From: Nitrospirota bacterium | GTDB taxonomy: Bacteria > Nitrospirota > Nitrospiria > Nitrospirales > Nitrospiraceae | DNA: 64,000 nt | Reading direction: 5' to 3' | Assembly (NCBI GenBank): GCA_004296885.1 | Contig: SCVN01000008.1 | Coordinates: forward strand, 186,001 to 250,000 | Program-made: the position numbers and the translations under genes | Part shown: piece by piece, positions 50,663 to 57,625 of the stretch | Position numbering within the stretch: position 1 is the first letter of the stretch | How the letters are laid out: each line of letters begins with the position of its first letter | The notes under the pieces: model-generated | Told to the model about the DNA's origin: nothing | Seen by the model: only the letters and a program-made list of their open reading frames with translations | The model's database searches: none

Positions 50663-51058
50663 CTATGAGAACATGGATTCGATGTCGCGGTCCAGGGTAA
50701 AGACGATGATGCGCTCGCCGATCTGGGTATCGATGTCGGTAAACAGGCCGACCGTTTTGGCCCTGGTAATCTCGTCCACCTGCTGACTGAGTTTCTCCCG
50801 TCCTTGCGCAATCAGATTCTGTCGTAGACGTCGCACCATCTCGATTCCTTCGGCCGTCTTGGCGAGCTGCCGTTCGGCCGGCGTCAGCACCCCCTTCAGA
50901 CGAACCAGCACGATATCTTTGATGATAAAGGCCCGGACATCCTCGGGCCCCCGCCCCATGAATTCCTGCTCGAACTTGATGACAGCGTTGCGAATGGCGC
51001 TTTCCGCTTCGCCTTTCGTTTGTCCGCTTTTCGCAGACCCTGATTGACTATGGGGCAT
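50663..51058 (-). CDS. DUF2294 family protein
   Basis: A 131-residue protein matching DUF2294: KFEQEFMGRGPEDVRAFIIK, VRLKGVLTPAERQLAKTAEG and ERIIVFTLDRDIE are the conserved blocks. The family lacks a known mechanism and is often seen near inorganic-carbon or anion uptake genes, which fits the dab genes diverging from it. ATG 51058 is taken; the frame continues ten codons upstream to 51088. It is convergent with hpnA, separated by only 15 bp. Confidence 0.8.
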   Translation of the reverse strand: MPHSQSGSAKSGQTKGEAESAIRNAVIKFEQEFMGRGPEDVRAFIIKDIVLVRLKGVLTPAERQLAKTAEGIEMVRRLRQNLIAQGREKLSQQVDEITRAKTVGLFTDIDTQIGERIIVFTLDRDIESMFS

Positions 51059-51125
51059 ACCCGAAAGCCCTATCCGGCTTGAGTCCAATAACAGGTTGTG
51101 CGTTCCGGCGCGCTATGGTAAGACA

Positions 51126-51263
51126 CCTACTCGAAGAATTGCAAACGATGGGGCCGCTGTCCTGTCACGCCAGACAAGCGGACCCATGCTCGATAGATTG
51201 CAGCGATTGCGGCAGTAGGGTAGCCGGCTTCCTCATGTTCTCGCAGGAGGTCGGCCACAGTAC
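51126..51263 (+). ncRNA. Structured leader (or small RNA) before the dab operon
   Basis: The region folds by eye into a closed multi-stem form: CCTACT (51126-51131) pairs with AGTAGG (51214-51219), a hairpin within it joins 51151-51161 to 51173-51185, and a second hairpin joins CCGGCTTCCT (51224-51233) to AGGAGGTCGG (51245-51254) with G-U pairs. It is followed by the intrinsic terminator at 51265-51315 and the dabB start. CCGGCT at 51224-51229 could instead pair with AGCCGG in the terminator's 5' arm, giving an antiterminator. No known riboswitch family is recognised. Confidence 0.5.
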
Positions 51264-51264
51264 A

Positions 51265-51315
51265 AGCCAGCCGGACGCCCCTGGGTTCTGCCAGGGCGCC
51301 GGCTGGCTTTTTTTC
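51265..51315 (+). terminator. Intrinsic terminator in the dab leader
   Basis: A 10-bp perfect stem (AGCCAGCCGG 51265-51274 with CCGGCTGGCT 51299-51308) continues inward as CGCCC-CTGG/CCAGGGCG and ends in a run of seven T (51308-51314). Its end is about 20 bp before dabB, so transcription from upstream would be attenuated or stopped here. Confidence 0.85.
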
Positions 51316-51336
51316 TGTCCTGATGCGTAGGTGCCC

Positions 51337-53037
51337 ATGGCCCCTGTGATGCTCGTCCCGCTACTGCCGCTGGTGGCGGCGTTCGTGCTTCTGATCGGCG
51401 GCTCCGAGTCTCGCGATCGGCGGGCCAAGCTCGGCGTGCTGCCCCTCCTGGCGGCATTCGTGGGGGCCGTCGTGACGTTGGCGCTCGTGTCCTCCGGTGG
51501 ACCGGTCAGCCTTCGCTTCTATGACCTGGGGCCCGCCGCCTCTCTCGCCTTGCCGCTCGGCTTCTACATCGACCGGCTCAGCGCGGTCATGATGGTCCTG
51601 ATTTCACTGGTCGGCGCCATCATCTACCGGTACTCCACGGGCTACATGTATCAAGACCGCTTCTATATCCGGTACCTCGCGCTCATCGCCTGTACGACCT
51701 TCGTCTTGCTCTGCATGGTCTCCAGCGCCAACCTGGTGATGCTGTTTGTATTCTGGCAACTGCTGAGCTATCTACTCTATCTCCTGGCCCACAACCATTC
51801 ACACGCGGCCACGCTCGAGGGGGCGTTCAGAACCTTCACGCTCTTGCGCGTCGGCGACGTGGCCTTTCTCGCGGGCATCGTGCTGGCCCATCAACTGTAC
51901 GGCACGATCGAGTTCCAGGAGCTGTTTGTCCGGGCGGCGGCGACACCCGTGACGCTCTCCCCGCTGCCGGGGGTGGAAATCGGCGGAACCACCGCCGTGA
52001 CGCTGCTCCTTTTCATCGGGGCCATGAGCAAGTCGGCGCAGTTTCCCCTCCATATCTGGCTGCCCCGCTCCCTCTATGCACCCACGCCGGTCCACGCCCT
52101 GCTCCATGCGGGGATCATCAATGCCGGCGGGTTTCTGATGAACCGGCTGGCCCCGCTCTATGGCCTGAGCCCGACGACCCTGCACGTGGCCTTCGTCGTC
52201 GGGACACTCACAGCCATTCTCGGCGCGTCGATGATGCTGGTGCAGAACGACATCAAGAAAACCCTCGGATTCTCCACGATCGGGCAGATGGGCTACATGA
52301 TCATGGAGTGCGGCTTGGGCGCCTTCTCCCTCGCGGTCTTCCACCTGATCGCGCACGGGCTCTTTAAGGCCACGGTCTTCCTGAACTGCGGCAACGTGAT
52401 TCACAAGGCCCGCCAGGAACCGACCTTCCCCCATATGCACCATGCCGTCGAAGAGCATGAGCTGTCTCGTCTCACGTGGCTGACCGGCTTTCTCACGTCG
52501 TTGCTGATGCCGCTCGTCATTCTCCTGGTCACGCACGGCGTGCTGGCCATTCCCTTGCGGGACGCGCAGGGGACCGTGATCTTCATGTTTTTCATCTGGG
52601 TCACGTCCTCGCAGGCCATCCTGACGCTCACCCGTCTGCGGGCCGTGGCTTCGTGGAAAGTGTCCGTGGCCATGCTGGTGACGCTGCTCTTCGTGGTCTT
52701 CACCTATCTGTTTGCGGCCGAGGCGTTCACGGCGTTTCTCTATCCCAACCCACAGGACGTGTCCTCCTACTTCCGGGCCGCGGCGCTCCCCCGCGGGTTC
52801 TTCGATGGGATCGTGATCGGAACCACGCTGCTGACCATGTTGAGTTGGGGCTATCTCTATGCCCAAGCCCACGGGCGCACGATGTGGATGCCCGCCTGGG
52901 CTGGCACGCTTCGAGTCCGCCTGTACGTGCTGTTCATGAACCGCCTGTATCTGGACGAACTGCACCGGAAACTCGGGCAAATCGTGATGCGGATCGCCCA
53001 TCGCCTAGACGTGAGCGCAATGGGGAGGCCCTGGTGA
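51337..53037 (+). CDS. dabB: DabB-type proton-channel subunit (NuoL/MrpA-like)
   Basis: A 566-residue polytopic protein of the complex-I antiporter family, coupled here to DabA rather than to NADH oxidation. It has about fourteen helices and the family blocks FYIDRLSAVMMVLISLVGAI, FWQLLSYLLYLLAHNH, MSKSAQFPLHIWLPRS, PTPVHALLHAGIINAGGFLM and VQNDIKKTLGFSTIGQMGYM, with the key lysines. In DAB systems this subunit is thought to pass protons that energise bicarbonate uptake. The start is ATG 51337 (GTG 51331 two codons earlier). It follows the terminator-bearing leader and overlaps the next gene. Confidence 0.9.
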   Translation: MAPVMLVPLLPLVAAFVLLIGGSESRDRRAKLGVLPLLAAFVGAVVTLALVSSGGPVSLRFYDLGPAASLALPLGFYIDRLSAVMMVLISLVGAIIYRYSTGYMYQDRFYIRYLALIACTTFVLLCMVSSANLVMLFVFWQLLSYLLYLLAHNHSHAATLEGAFRTFTLLRVGDVAFLAGIVLAHQLYGTIEFQELFVRAAATPVTLSPLPGVEIGGTTAVTLLLFIGAMSKSAQFPLHIWLPRSLYAPTPVHALLHAGIINAGGFLMNRLAPLYGLSPTTLHVAFVVGTLTAILGASMMLVQNDIKKTLGFSTIGQMGYMIMECGLGAFSLAVFHLIAHGLFKATVFLNCGNVIHKARQEPTFPHMHHAVEEHELSRLTWLTGFLTSLLMPLVILLVTHGVLAIPLRDAQGTVIFMFFIWVTSSQAILTLTRLRAVASWKVSVAMLVTLLFVVFTYLFAAEAFTAFLYPNPQDVSSYFRAAALPRGFFDGIVIGTTLLTMLSWGYLYAQAHGRTMWMPAWAGTLRVRLYVLFMNRLYLDELHRKLGQIVMRIAHRLDVSAMGRPW

Positions 53038-54341
53038 TGGCTGGGCCGGCGCTTCAGTTCGCCCTCGTCGTGATTCCCTTGGCGGGCGCAGCGCTGGGAC
53101 TGGCTGTCTGGTCGAACCCCCGGCGGCTGAAACAGTGGGCGCTCCTCGTCGCCATCGCCAGCGGGCTCCTGCTGCTCGGCATGGCGGGACGACTGACGGC
53201 TCCCGCCGAGGGCATGCTGCCGCTCGCCCTGCTTCCGATGGCCGCATTCCTGACACTGCTCGGGCAACCGACTCATCCGGACAACCGCCAGGCCTGGCTG
53301 ATGACGTTGGCGCTGCTGGGACTGGGACTCGGCGTGCGCATCAGCCACGATCATCTGGGATCGATCTTCCTGCTTCTCCTGCTCGGTCTGGTCGCGGCGC
53401 TGCTGTATCGACACCGCGCCATGTCGGGATCCGTGCCTTGGTGGGGCATCGGCACCTGCGGTCTCGGCGTGATCGGCCTCCTCCTCTCGCTGATCGCGCC
53501 CCCTTCTGTATCTGCTGGTGCGCTCCTCATGGCCTGCGCGATCCTGTTGCCGCTGCCTCCCTTGCATGGAAGTTATGTCGCCGCCTTCAGGGGGTTGCCG
53601 GGCAACCTTCCGGCGTTTCTGGCCCTGCTGTTGCCCAGTCTTGGGTTCCATCGCCTGCTGGACTTGATGCCGAGCCTGCCGGAGCCTCTTGTCGAGGCGC
53701 TGGTCCTGCCGGCATTGGCGGGCATGCTCTACGGCTCGATGAAGGCCCTGACGCAATCGCGGGTACGGTTGCTCCTGGCCTATGCCGGTCTGTCGTTCTT
53801 CTCCATCCTCTGGTGGTATGTGGCGGCCACGCGGACGGCTCCGCCGCAGGCCGGCGTCTACCTCTGTTCCGTCGGGCTGGCCACCGGCGGGCTCCTGCTG
53901 GCCTGGCATGCGATTCAGGCCCGGTACGGCGAAGTAGACCGGCGCGCGGTCACCGGGCTGGTCTATCGCATGCCGCGCTTCGCCGTGCTGGTTTCGCTGC
54001 TGGCGCTGGCCGCCATGGGATTGCCGCCGTTCGGTCTCTTCTCCGGCTTCCTGAGCCTGCTGCTCGCCCCGTCTCTGCCTCGTTCCGGCGCCTGGCTCAT
54101 CGTCTTCGGCGCCTGGCTCACGGCCTCCTGGTACATCCTCGACATGGTGCAGGGCCTGCTCTTCGGCCGCCAACGGTCGGATCTGCGGTACACGGATCTC
54201 CGCCGATCCGAGTTCGCGTCGCTGGTCCTGTGCCTGCTGTTGTTGATCGCCCTGGGACTCACGCCGGCCCGCTTCTTCCAGCCCGGCACCTCGACGCCGC
54301 AGCTTCGAACGGCGATGGAGTCACTCTCATGGAACCGGTAA
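53037..54341 (+). CDS. Additional NuoM/N-like membrane subunit of the DAB locus
   Basis: A 434-residue membrane protein with about thirteen helices. It is a diverged relative of the antiporter-like complex I subunits: PPLHGSYVAAF, ALAGMLYGSMKALTQSRV and RLLLAYAGLSFFSILW correspond to the region around the discontinuous helix, but the usual Q-x-D-x-K-R-x-L-A-Y has become Q-S-R-V-R-L-L-L-A-Y, losing the lysine and aspartate. The ATG overlaps dabB's stop by one base, with GGGAGG upstream, and the 3' end overlaps dabA by 13 bp. Standard two-gene DAB operons lack this third membrane subunit. Confidence 0.78.
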   Translation: MAGPALQFALVVIPLAGAALGLAVWSNPRRLKQWALLVAIASGLLLLGMAGRLTAPAEGMLPLALLPMAAFLTLLGQPTHPDNRQAWLMTLALLGLGLGVRISHDHLGSIFLLLLLGLVAALLYRHRAMSGSVPWWGIGTCGLGVIGLLLSLIAPPSVSAGALLMACAILLPLPPLHGSYVAAFRGLPGNLPAFLALLLPSLGFHRLLDLMPSLPEPLVEALVLPALAGMLYGSMKALTQSRVRLLLAYAGLSFFSILWWYVAATRTAPPQAGVYLCSVGLATGGLLLAWHAIQARYGEVDRRAVTGLVYRMPRFAVLVSLLALAAMGLPPFGLFSGFLSLLLAPSLPRSGAWLIVFGAWLTASWYILDMVQGLLFGRQRSDLRYTDLRRSEFASLVLCLLLLIALGLTPARFFQPGTSTPQLRTAMESLSWNR

Positions 54342-57300
54342 CGGCCGCGCCGCACCGCGATACGCAGCGGATGGAGATCCGCGGGATCATCCGCCTCTCC
54401 AGCGAGATCATCGCCCGGTATTGGCCGATGCGGACCTTCGTGCACCACAATCCCCTGCACAGTCTCGAATATCTCCCGTTCGACGACACGGTGAAGCGCA
54501 GCCGGCAGATTCTGGGAGGCAGCGGGTATCTGCCCGGCGACACGTATCGAGCCTATGTCCGTGCCGGCCGGATTCGTCTCGCACATCTCAATGCCGCCCT
54601 GAAGCCCTTGGCGCACGAGCAGCACGTCACGCTGGGGGCGCGGCGCGTGACGCACGGGGACGTCCTGCGCGCCTGCCTTACGCACGGCCTCGGCGCGCTT
54701 ACGGTCGAGCCGCTCGATGCGTTGCCGGATCAGGGATCGGACCTGCGGCCGGTCGAGACGCTGGCGGACCGGCTGGGCTCGTGGCTGAAGGCTCCGACGG
54801 TGCATGAACGCATCGCGACGGCGGCGCGGGAGGACCAGGCGTCGCTGGGGCGGCAGGTCACGCTCTCGCACTGGTGCGATCGCATCCTGGGCACGCACAT
54901 CGTCGAGCAGATCAACGGCGAACTCATCAAGTGGTGTGAAGCGTTTTTGGACGAAGGCCATGCCACGTGGCCCATGCCCGGTCGGGAACAGGGATTGTAT
55001 GGAGCGTGGAAATCCCTGGCCCGGCATGAATGGTCGCCCTGCGGCATTGCAGACAGCCGGCTCAAAATCGCGGGCCTGCCGGAGGAACCGGAGGACGCGG
55101 TGCTCGACAGTCTCGAGATTCTGGGAATCCCCCAGGCATTCCGACAGGACTACCTGTCGCTCCAGTTCGCGGCCTTGCCCGGCTGGGCCGGGTTCATCAA
55201 GTGGCGGGGCGATCAGCCCAACTATGAATGGCAGCAAGCTTATCCGGCCGGGCTGGTGAAATTTATGGCCATCCGCCTGTGGTACGTGCGGGAGTTGGTT
55301 CAGCAAGCCTGCCGTGAAGAGTTGGGAATTGCGGGCAATTATCACTCGGTCTTCGCCTACATGCAGGACCAATCCCATGCCTACTATTGGAGAAGAGAGC
55401 GGCTGGCCGGACGGTTGCCGGCCGTCTACGCCGAGCAGGTCGATCGGCTTGCCCGGAAGCAAATCGATGGCTGGGAACGTTTGACCGAGCTGTATCAGAC
55501 GGAGTTCGGACCCCGCAATGACCGGGCCAGGCAGCGCGCCGAAGCCAGGCGCCTGCTCGCGCTGGCGCAAGTGCTGGAGATGCCACCGGCCGCGCTCATG
55601 GACAGCTCGCCGGAGGATCTCGCGGCCCTCGTGGGTTGGATGGAGGCCTTCCCGGAATCGGACCATGGCCCGGTCTGGCTCAGGGCCTTCGAAGCCGGTT
55701 ATCACGAACAGCTGTTCGGAAAGCTCACACGCAATGGGCGTTCGGCAAACGTCTTGTCTGGACAATCCAGCGCGCACAGCGCGCGTGAGGGAGAGGCTCC
55801 TCCGGCTAAGCCGGAGGAGGGGGCGACGCGAGCCCCTGCAATAGTCCGGCCTGCCTCCCAGTCGGTCTATTGCATCGACGTGCGATCGGAACCGTTCCGG
55901 CGCCACCTGGAATCGACCGGCGCAAACGAGACCTACGGATTTGCCGGTTTCTTCGCCGTCTTTATTCGGTACCGGGCCTGGGGCAGGGAGCACGACACCG
56001 AACAGTTCCCGGTCATCATGCGAGCCAAACATGAAGTGCGCGAACTGCCCCGCGGCGCGCTCGATCACGTGGTGTCCCAACATGAGGCCAGAAGCAAACT
56101 GGTCCGTGCGGGCCACACGCTCTTGCACGATCTGAAGGAAAACGTGGTCACCCCCTATGTCATGGTGGAGTCGCTGGGATGGTTTTACGGCCTCCCCATC
56201 ATCGGCAAGACGGCGCTGCCGGCCCTGTATCGGCGCGGGACCGCCTGGCTGAGGCGCCGTTTGGTGCCGTCTCTGGCCACCTGCGTCCCCATCGACAAGC
56301 TGTCGCCGGCAGAAGCCGAGGCCATGCTGACGTCCGAGCAGGGCGCGACGATCCGCAAAGCCTTGCAGGACCGGCTGGGGCTGCACGAATCGCGGATCAC
56401 GCCGGAATTCGTTGAGGCCTTGCGGAAACGGGCCTTGAACGGAGAGGGATCGTCGGAGCCGTCCCTTGTCGAGGCGATTCGGCCGGCGGGCCTGACGACG
56501 GAGCAGCTGACTGCGTTTGTGGAAGCCCTGCGGCGCTACTACGCCATCGATCGGCGTTCGGCGTCACGGCAGCGGGAGCGCATTACCAGGATGGGCTTCA
56601 CGCCGGAGGAACAGGTCGCCACGGTCGACACGGCGCTGCGCATGATGGGGTTGACCCGAAACTTCGCGCGCCTCGTGTTGTTCTGCGCGCACGGGAGCAC
56701 CACGGAGAACAACCCGTTTGAGTCCGCCCTGGACTGCGGAGCCTGCGGGGGCAACGAGGGGAAGCCCAACGCCCGCGTGCTCGCTGCCATGGCCAACAAG
56801 CCTCAGGTCAGGGAACGGCTGGCCAAGAACGGGCTCGCCATTCCGGCCGATACCCACTTCCTGGCCGGGCAAGTGGACACAACGACGGAAGCAGTGGAGC
56901 TCTTCGATCTGGAAGATCTGCCTCCAACTCATCGCGCGGACGTCGCTCGGCTGCGTGAGGACCTGCGCCAGGCCGCGCGGCTGACCAGCCAGGAGCGCTG
57001 CGCGCGTCTTCCGGACATCGCCGCCGGCTTGCCGCCGGACCGGGCCTCGGCCCTGGCGCGCGAACGCAGCGTCGACTGGAGCCAGGTGAGGCCCGAGTGG
57101 GGCTTGTCCGGCAACACCTCCTTCATCATCGGCCGGCGCGAGCTCACCGCAGGGCTCGATCTGGAGGGGCGGGTCTTTCTCCATTCCTACGACTATCGGG
57201 AAGACCCGACCGAGCGCCTGCTCGAAGTGCTGATGACCGCACCGCAAGTCGTCGCCCAGTGGATCAACATGGAGCATTATTTTTCGGCCGTGGACAACGA

Positions 57301-57625
57301 CGTGTACGGCGGGGGCAGCAAGATTTATCATAACGTGGTGGGGCGCATCGGCATCATGTCCGGCCCCTGGAGCGATCTCCGCCTGGGATTGGCCTGGCAG
57401 ACCGTGATGAACGGCGACATGCCATACCATGAGCCCATGCGTTTGCTGACGATCGTCGAGGCGCCGCGCGGGCGCATTGAAAAACTGATCGCGCGACACG
57501 AGGTCCTGCAGCATTTCTATCACAACGAGTGGGTGCATCTGGCGGCATTGGACCCGGCGGACGGCCTGTGGTACCGCTACCTGCCGTCCGGCGCCTGGAG
57601 CCAAATCGCACCGACTTGTGTATAA
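54329..57625 (+). CDS. dabA: DabA-type inorganic carbon transporter subunit (DUF2309)
   Basis: A 1098-residue cytoplasmic-membrane-associated protein with a beta-carbonic-anhydrase-like core that, with DabB, accumulates bicarbonate. The presumed zinc site is visible: Cys and Asp in VYCIDVRSEPFRRHLE (about residues 511-526), and His and Cys in LFCAHGSTTENNP and LDCGACGGNEGKPN (about 785-820). FVHHNPLHSLEYLPFDD opens the protein. Just before the C-x-D motif lies an odd Ala/Pro/Glu-rich stretch of about 30 residues encoded by a palindromic DNA insertion (55754-55847). ATG 54329 overlaps the preceding gene. Confidence 0.92.
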   Translation: MEPVTAAPHRDTQRMEIRGIIRLSSEIIARYWPMRTFVHHNPLHSLEYLPFDDTVKRSRQILGGSGYLPGDTYRAYVRAGRIRLAHLNAALKPLAHEQHVTLGARRVTHGDVLRACLTHGLGALTVEPLDALPDQGSDLRPVETLADRLGSWLKAPTVHERIATAAREDQASLGRQVTLSHWCDRILGTHIVEQINGELIKWCEAFLDEGHATWPMPGREQGLYGAWKSLARHEWSPCGIADSRLKIAGLPEEPEDAVLDSLEILGIPQAFRQDYLSLQFAALPGWAGFIKWRGDQPNYEWQQAYPAGLVKFMAIRLWYVRELVQQACREELGIAGNYHSVFAYMQDQSHAYYWRRERLAGRLPAVYAEQVDRLARKQIDGWERLTELYQTEFGPRNDRARQRAEARRLLALAQVLEMPPAALMDSSPEDLAALVGWMEAFPESDHGPVWLRAFEAGYHEQLFGKLTRNGRSANVLSGQSSAHSAREGEAPPAKPEEGATRAPAIVRPASQSVYCIDVRSEPFRRHLESTGANETYGFAGFFAVFIRYRAWGREHDTEQFPVIMRAKHEVRELPRGALDHVVSQHEARSKLVRAGHTLLHDLKENVVTPYVMVESLGWFYGLPIIGKTALPALYRRGTAWLRRRLVPSLATCVPIDKLSPAEAEAMLTSEQGATIRKALQDRLGLHESRITPEFVEALRKRALNGEGSSEPSLVEAIRPAGLTTEQLTAFVEALRRYYAIDRRSASRQRERITRMGFTPEEQVATVDTALRMMGLTRNFARLVLFCAHGSTTENNPFESALDCGACGGNEGKPNARVLAAMANKPQVRERLAKNGLAIPADTHFLAGQVDTTTEAVELFDLEDLPPTHRADVARLREDLRQAARLTSQERCARLPDIAAGLPPDRASALARERSVDWSQVRPEWGLSGNTSFIIGRRELTAGLDLEGRVFLHSYDYREDPTERLLEVLMTAPQVVAQWINMEHYFSAVDNDVYGGGSKIYHNVVGRIGIMSGPWSDLRLGLAWQTVMNGDMPYHEPMRLLTIVEAPRGRIEKLIARHEVLQHFYHNEWVHLAALDPADGLWYRYLPSGAWSQIAPTCV
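55754..55847. repeat. Palindromic insertion inside dabA
   Basis: The centre is an 11-bp perfect stem with one-base loop (CTCCTCCGGCT/AGCCGGAGGAG, 55797-55819). The flanks show GCGCGC palindromes and weak terminal repeats (GTCTGGAC and ATAGTCCGG). It is translated in frame as part of DabA, and the encoded segment has no counterpart I know of in other DabA proteins. Confidence 0.55.

Follow-up and report, generated by a model that had tools for sequence, protein, structure and literature searches.

A conserved, riboswitch-like leader RNA predicted upstream of inorganic-carbon acquisition genes in Nitrospirales

The region between mpsC and dabB

The window, a 64,000-nucleotide stretch of a Nitrospirota genome (contig SCVN01000008.1, positions 186,001 to 250,000), includes the divergently oriented genes mpsC and dabB (ATG at 51337), which lie about 240 nt apart. 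A promoter-like pair of elements, a hairpin (P1), a linker, a second hairpin (P2), and a terminator lie in this gap in that order. The features are listed by position in the window; covariance models R1 and R2 and alignment A6 are described in the next section.

50663 to 51088, minus strand: mpsC, divergent and adjoining the leader element (PF10057, E = 4.5e-35)
51096 to 51124, plus strand: predicted promoter, with −35 TTGTGC (51096-51101), a 17-nt spacer ending in TGG, and −10 TAAGAC (51119-51124); start expected near 51131
51131 to 51315, plus strand: whole leader RNA element (R1, 174.8 bits at 51145-51315; R2, 132.5 bits)
51147 to 51188, plus strand: P1 hairpin, GAUGGG..CCCAU with a G51153/A51182 mismatch (13 pairs; about 86% of cells paired in A6)
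51211 to 51213, plus strand: 5′ side of P2a, GGC, the putative antiterminator strand that ends the linker (complementary to RCC in 83/88 sequences)
51215 to 51263, plus strand: P2 hairpin, with GUA/UAC closing pairs, a 2x2 internal loop, GU/AC pairs, and a GCCGG stem
51264 to 51314, plus strand: intrinsic terminator from a terminator scan (stem 51264-51309, U tract 51308-51314; −38.9 kcal/mol); its GCC at 51266-51268 is common to P2a
51337 to 53037, plus strand: dabB, ATG with AGGTG upstream, a GTG at 51331 also being possible (PF00361 and PF00662)
53037 to 54341, plus strand: second Proton_antipo_M gene of the operon (PF00361, 4.4e-12)
54329 to 57625, plus strand: dabA (PF10070, 2.8e-261)

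A gene for a PII-like protein (PF00543; 57618-57998), a possible posttranslational regulator of the pump, was also observed 3′ of dabA.

A 231-nt stretch of the region was predicted to fold more stably than 200 of 200 dinucleotide shuffles (z = −3.7), and the 3′ part (51258-51314) had a folding z of −6.0. An earlier note on this DNA had described a strong terminator about 20 bp before dabB, and the terminator indeed ends 16 nt from the GTG at 51331 and 22 nt from the ATG at 51337. The same note placed three paired regions before it; P1 and P2 were conserved and covarying among relatives, but the third, a long-range CCUACU/AGUAGG pairing, was not kept. This pairing, which closes P1 in the fold of the window, was rejected as part of the element, being absent in relatives and having its 5′ side upstream of the predicted transcription start.

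Conservation and gene context in the Nitrospirales

A blastn search of 41 related genomes produced clear homologues in 11, including that of the window (E values of 2e-117 to 2e-6). Model R1, built from ten sequences, matched 84 of 295 genomes in a phylum sample, and model R2, built from 90 matches aligned to the model (A6), matched 185 of the 235 genomes of the order Nitrospirales and 124 of its 153 good ones. R2 matched 117 genomes in a 395-genome sample of the phylum, the only one outside the order being G097, with a weak score. The weakest matches were treated as chance (L109 and L110, 20 to 21 bits with R1; L251 and L253, 26 to 29 bits with R2; G097, 30 bits with R2). An exact-pattern search of 84,980 genomes returned 59 stretches, 58 with titles beginning Nitrospir-. 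The other, L174, was titled Nitrosospira and agreed in score and coordinates with G373, which belongs to the same family as the window.

In A6, 88.7% of cells were paired, compared to 30 to 50% when the structure was slid by 1 to 3 columns, and two-sided changes occurred in 40 of 47 pairs (692 cells). These counts lean towards the structure because A6 was fitted to the model; in a ten-sequence MAFFT alignment that was not model fitted, two-sided changes were found in 11/47 pairs versus 6.8 in shuffles. All 13 pairs of P1 showed two-sided change somewhere in A6, and the basal stem of the terminator was paired in 92.9% of cells. The earlier note had named a covariance search in relatives as a check and lack of conserved pairing as grounds for refutation; that refutation did not materialize, with P1, P2, and the terminator being conserved and covarying.

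The GUA/UAC and GU/AC pairs of P2 were paired in 99.1% of cells. They flank the internal loop, in which GG (51218-51219) lies opposite AG (51259-51260). The unpaired G51219 and A51259 were invariant (88/88), and G51218 (84/88) and G51260 (83/88) were nearly so, a pattern expected of a binding site, for which there are no binding data. Four copies carried AG or CG opposite AA in place of GG/AG, two of them before SulP genes (L141 and L151) and two before dabB (L094 and L075); the AG/AA version included both SulP-linked copies.

The elements and spacing of the predicted promoter, which stops about 20 nt short of P1 in the window, were kept in relatives. Promoter scores of at least 9 were obtained for 24 of 91 loci versus 0 of 273 control windows, and scores of at least 8 for 62/91 versus 39/273 (91 of the 99 matches defined below were used; six were omitted as the weakest and two for want of enough upstream sequence). 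The window's own promoter scored only 7, and a stricter promoter scan of the window reported none at 51096-51124.

Genes downstream of the RNA were tallied for 99 of the 116 R1 matches, 17 having been removed by hand beforehand (terminator palindromes matched on the opposite strand, and weak secondary matches; 14.0 to 23.7 bits). The nearest matching downstream gene, scored by tblastn against reference proteins in the fetched flanks, was an inorganic-carbon gene in 95 of 99 cases: dabB in 66, SulP in 11, mnhE of an Mrp/Dab operon in 9, dabA in 8, and an LCIB-type carbonic anhydrase gene in 1. No such gene was matched in the remaining 4 (L140, at a contig end; L100; and the weak matches L109 and L110). 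Domains encoded downstream included DabA (PF10070), MNHE (PF01899), MrpF (PF04066), SulP (PF00916), and LCIB (PF18599). Copies lay on the same strand as the gene, with a median gap of 24 nt, and most adjoined mpsC. The best dabB match began 1.8 to 1.9 kb downstream in 11 of the 66 dabB cases because two dabB-like genes occur in succession; nine of these 11 had an ORF of about 560 to 590 aa beginning near the terminator. One copy upstream of dabB is that of Nitrospira moscoviensis (NZ_CP011801.1; L192:477-627). The mnhE operons mostly adjoined dabA or other Dab genes. Three of four SulP proteins tested were placed near the NCBIfam model for the bicarbonate transporter BicA, but the substrate is unproven because these matches fell far below the cutoff. 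An extra copy in a Nitrospira metagenome-assembled genome preceded a 400-aa protein (L208:1989-3191) weakly resembling the catalytic domain of the carboxysome shell carbonic anhydrase CsoSCA (PF20686, E = 3.5e-5; TIGR02701, 8.9e-7, below cutoff).

Most genomes carried only one copy. In one genome (G032), separate copies preceded SulP, dabA, and mnhE, all on one contig, and two others (G402 and G418) likewise had one copy per operon; this survey covered 40 chosen copies, not all. The RNA accompanied only some of the Dab genes in these genomes, and many DabA genes lacked it; G338, for example, had four DabA matches and one full-length copy.

Overlap of a putative antiterminator strand with the terminator

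Of 88 distinct sequences, 83 had a GGY motif, 0 to 5 nt before the GUA of P2, that was complementary to an RCC at the base of the terminator, compared to a mean of 22.7 of 90 when the upstream letters were shuffled. In the window, GGC (51211-51213) pairs with GCC (51266-51268), the two conserved G's being present in 86/88 (G51211) and 87/88 (G51212) sequences. The earlier suggestion that part of the second hairpin pairs with the 5′ arm of the terminator was thus right in spirit, but the pairing strand lies just 5′ of P2 and outside it. On sequence grounds, the extended P2 and the full terminator are mutually exclusive, as both need the RCC at the terminator base.

In simulated transcripts ending before the 3′ arm of the terminator, the median pairing probability of P2a was 0.99, and it exceeded 0.5 in 78 of 83. 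In the window, the P2a form had a predicted energy of −55.3 kcal/mol versus −62.5 for the terminator form, a difference of 7.2 kcal/mol that, by inference, a ligand or protein could bridge. Covariation support for P2a is thin because it has only 3 bp and is nearly invariant, offering one compensated pair and seven G-U pairs; in the compensated case, L096, the pairing is GGU/ACC and the terminator's 3′ arm carries a GGU to match. The strict form was missing in 5 of 88 sequences, one of which (L124) could pair through G-U. From general knowledge of terminators, the hairpin remaining in the P2a form, which is separated from the U tract by several nucleotides, should terminate more weakly; that this partial hairpin might still terminate counts against a readthrough model.

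Regulatory interpretation and alternatives

On comparative grounds, the element is likely (probability of roughly 0.7) a new cis-acting class of transcription-attenuation RNA, riboswitch-like, serving inorganic-carbon acquisition genes in Nitrospirales. The attenuation proposed in the earlier note gained strong support from same-strand copies before unrelated carbon genes, a promoter of the element's own, and the conserved antiterminator/terminator overlap. The class is probably a riboswitch, with neither a ligand nor the direction of switching demonstrated. Comparative sequence analysis documented the conserved structure, the P2a/terminator overlap, the predicted promoter, and the gene context. 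It is an inference, made without expression or binding data, that inorganic-carbon status is what the signal reports, that the signal is a small molecule and not a protein, and that its binding switches expression on. A carbon-related signal, also raised in the earlier note, is supported by gene context only, in the absence of ligand data.

Under the proposed mechanism, transcription would start about 15 nt before P1, and P1 and then P2 would fold as the RNA emerges. P2a (GGY-RCC) would lengthen the P2 helix and occupy bases needed for the foot of the terminator. A signal stabilizing P2 through the GG/AG loop would allow P2a to hold, leaving a hairpin away from the U tract and permitting readthrough into dabB or the other targets; without the signal, the terminator foot would displace P2a and transcription would stop. 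Readthrough with stabilized P2 predicts an ON switch, and if the genes rise at low carbon, the stabilizing signal should increase as carbon becomes scarce. Inorganic carbon itself could instead be the ligand and disfavor P2a, and sequence cannot decide between these. Dissolved inorganic carbon, as bicarbonate or as CO2/carbonate, might be sensed directly, perhaps together with a metal ion in the GG/AG loop; this is not excluded but remains speculative without ligand data. If true, this would be the first riboswitch for inorganic carbon, controlling DAB pumps, SulP transporters, Mrp-Dab complexes, and two unrelated types of carbonic anhydrase across Nitrospira. The Mrp genes leave Na+ as a signal that is not excluded; carbon accounts better for the SulP and dabA neighbors and for carbonic anhydrases of the LCIB and CsoSCA types.

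An RNA-binding protein that reads P1 and P2, including the GG/AG loop, and either blocks or favors the terminator would be served as well by an invariant internal loop and a two-hairpin layout, and candidates lie close at hand in the small-protein gene mpsC, divergent beside most copies, and in the PII-like gene 3′ of dabA in the window. No protein partner has been identified, ANTAR-type hexaloops are missing from P1 and P2, and no MpsC match was obtained in three RNA-bearing genomes of 98 to 100% completeness (G413, G264, and G038), so such protein-dependent antitermination is doubtful, though still a possibility to be reckoned with. MpsC as an obligate partner was rejected on account of these three genomes; a search of viral contigs for MpsC found none. 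Attenuation by a translated leader peptide could draw on the two alternative hairpins before the terminator and on an open frame spanning the region in the window. It is hardly tenable, as short ORFs (6 to 45 codons) with a Shine-Dalgarno sequence and start were not enriched (19/93 versus 27.5 in shuffles), leader length varies freely, and the invariant unpaired bases would go unexplained.

The earlier note had also allowed for a stand-alone small RNA, which would act in trans and merely lie beside dabB. Its own promoter, a strong terminator, and a single copy in most genomes are what such an RNA would have, but this reading is disfavored because genomes with several copies carry one per target operon, before unrelated genes within one genome. 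The consistent strand and short distance to the gene also argue against it, the 16- to 22-nt gap between terminator and start in the window is too short for a separate promoter, and a small RNA would have no need of the P2a/terminator exclusivity; it was considered very improbable.

Rfam 15 gave no match in the window at the gathering threshold and only two tRNAs in 14 further loci; at E ≤ 10, matches in the window were at chance level, the best below threshold being microRNA models (E of at least 0.2). The element resembles termination riboswitches in its 5′ leader position, structured domain with invariant unpaired bases, terminator/antiterminator overlap, and presence upstream of several families of genes within a single pathway, but it has no Rfam family or known ligand, and these searches found it in only one bacterial order. 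ANTAR leader motifs have hexaloops with A1 and G4. Like ANTAR/NasT leaders, the element has two hairpins followed by a terminator with which the second is exclusive; in contrast, its P2 overlaps the terminator only through P2a, nitrate genes are not downstream, and A1/G4 hexaloops were found in 0 of 25 P2 and 1 of 21 P1 hexaloops (90 rows). A T-box leader was rejected, as there was no Rfam match and no aminoacylation gene among the identified downstream genes. Guanidine (ykkC) riboswitches have been reported upstream of nitrate/sulfate/bicarbonate transporters among others (PMC7266159). The element shares the association with anion transporters but had no ykkC match at either threshold, and its genes are almost only inorganic-carbon genes.

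Nitrospira are abundant nitrifiers, major oxidizers of nitrite and ammonia, and fix CO2. No description of how they tune carbon uptake was found in the literature searched, and text searches turned up no riboswitch for bicarbonate or CO2; novelty is claimed only for the sources searched, which did not extend to supplements or to most of the subscription literature. “Nitrospirae” using the reductive tricarboxylic acid cycle are stated to typically encode multiple carbonic anhydrases, a dissolved inorganic carbon transporter, or both (PMC10880623), DAB2 is treated in PMC13144422, and both mentions of riboswitches in a Nitrospirales genome paper concern guanidine (PMC12342949). Term searches of PMC8632094, PMC2864571, and PMC6429828 returned nothing. 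The RNA looks like an unrecognized genetic switch adjusting carbon supply in this order. Its sharing by unrelated inorganic-carbon genes would define a regulon, and it makes direct sensing of bicarbonate or CO2 by RNA a testable question.

Two copies had other neighbors. One (L100:3001-3163, on G032:C81; 66 bits with R2) had no carbon gene within the next 2 kb; a phosphatidyltransferase-family gene lies about 0.4 kb downstream, with a CitMHS-like transporter-type ORF and a CBS-like ORF upstream (by eye), and the copy may be an orphan, a remnant, or trans-acting. The other (L243:1951-2116, on G393:C553, as well as L191; 80 bits with R2) precedes a gene for a 797-aa protein (L243:2208-4601) that had no Pfam or NCBIfam match and is a candidate new carbon-related gene, an example of how the RNA could serve as a handle for finding new carbon-uptake genes.
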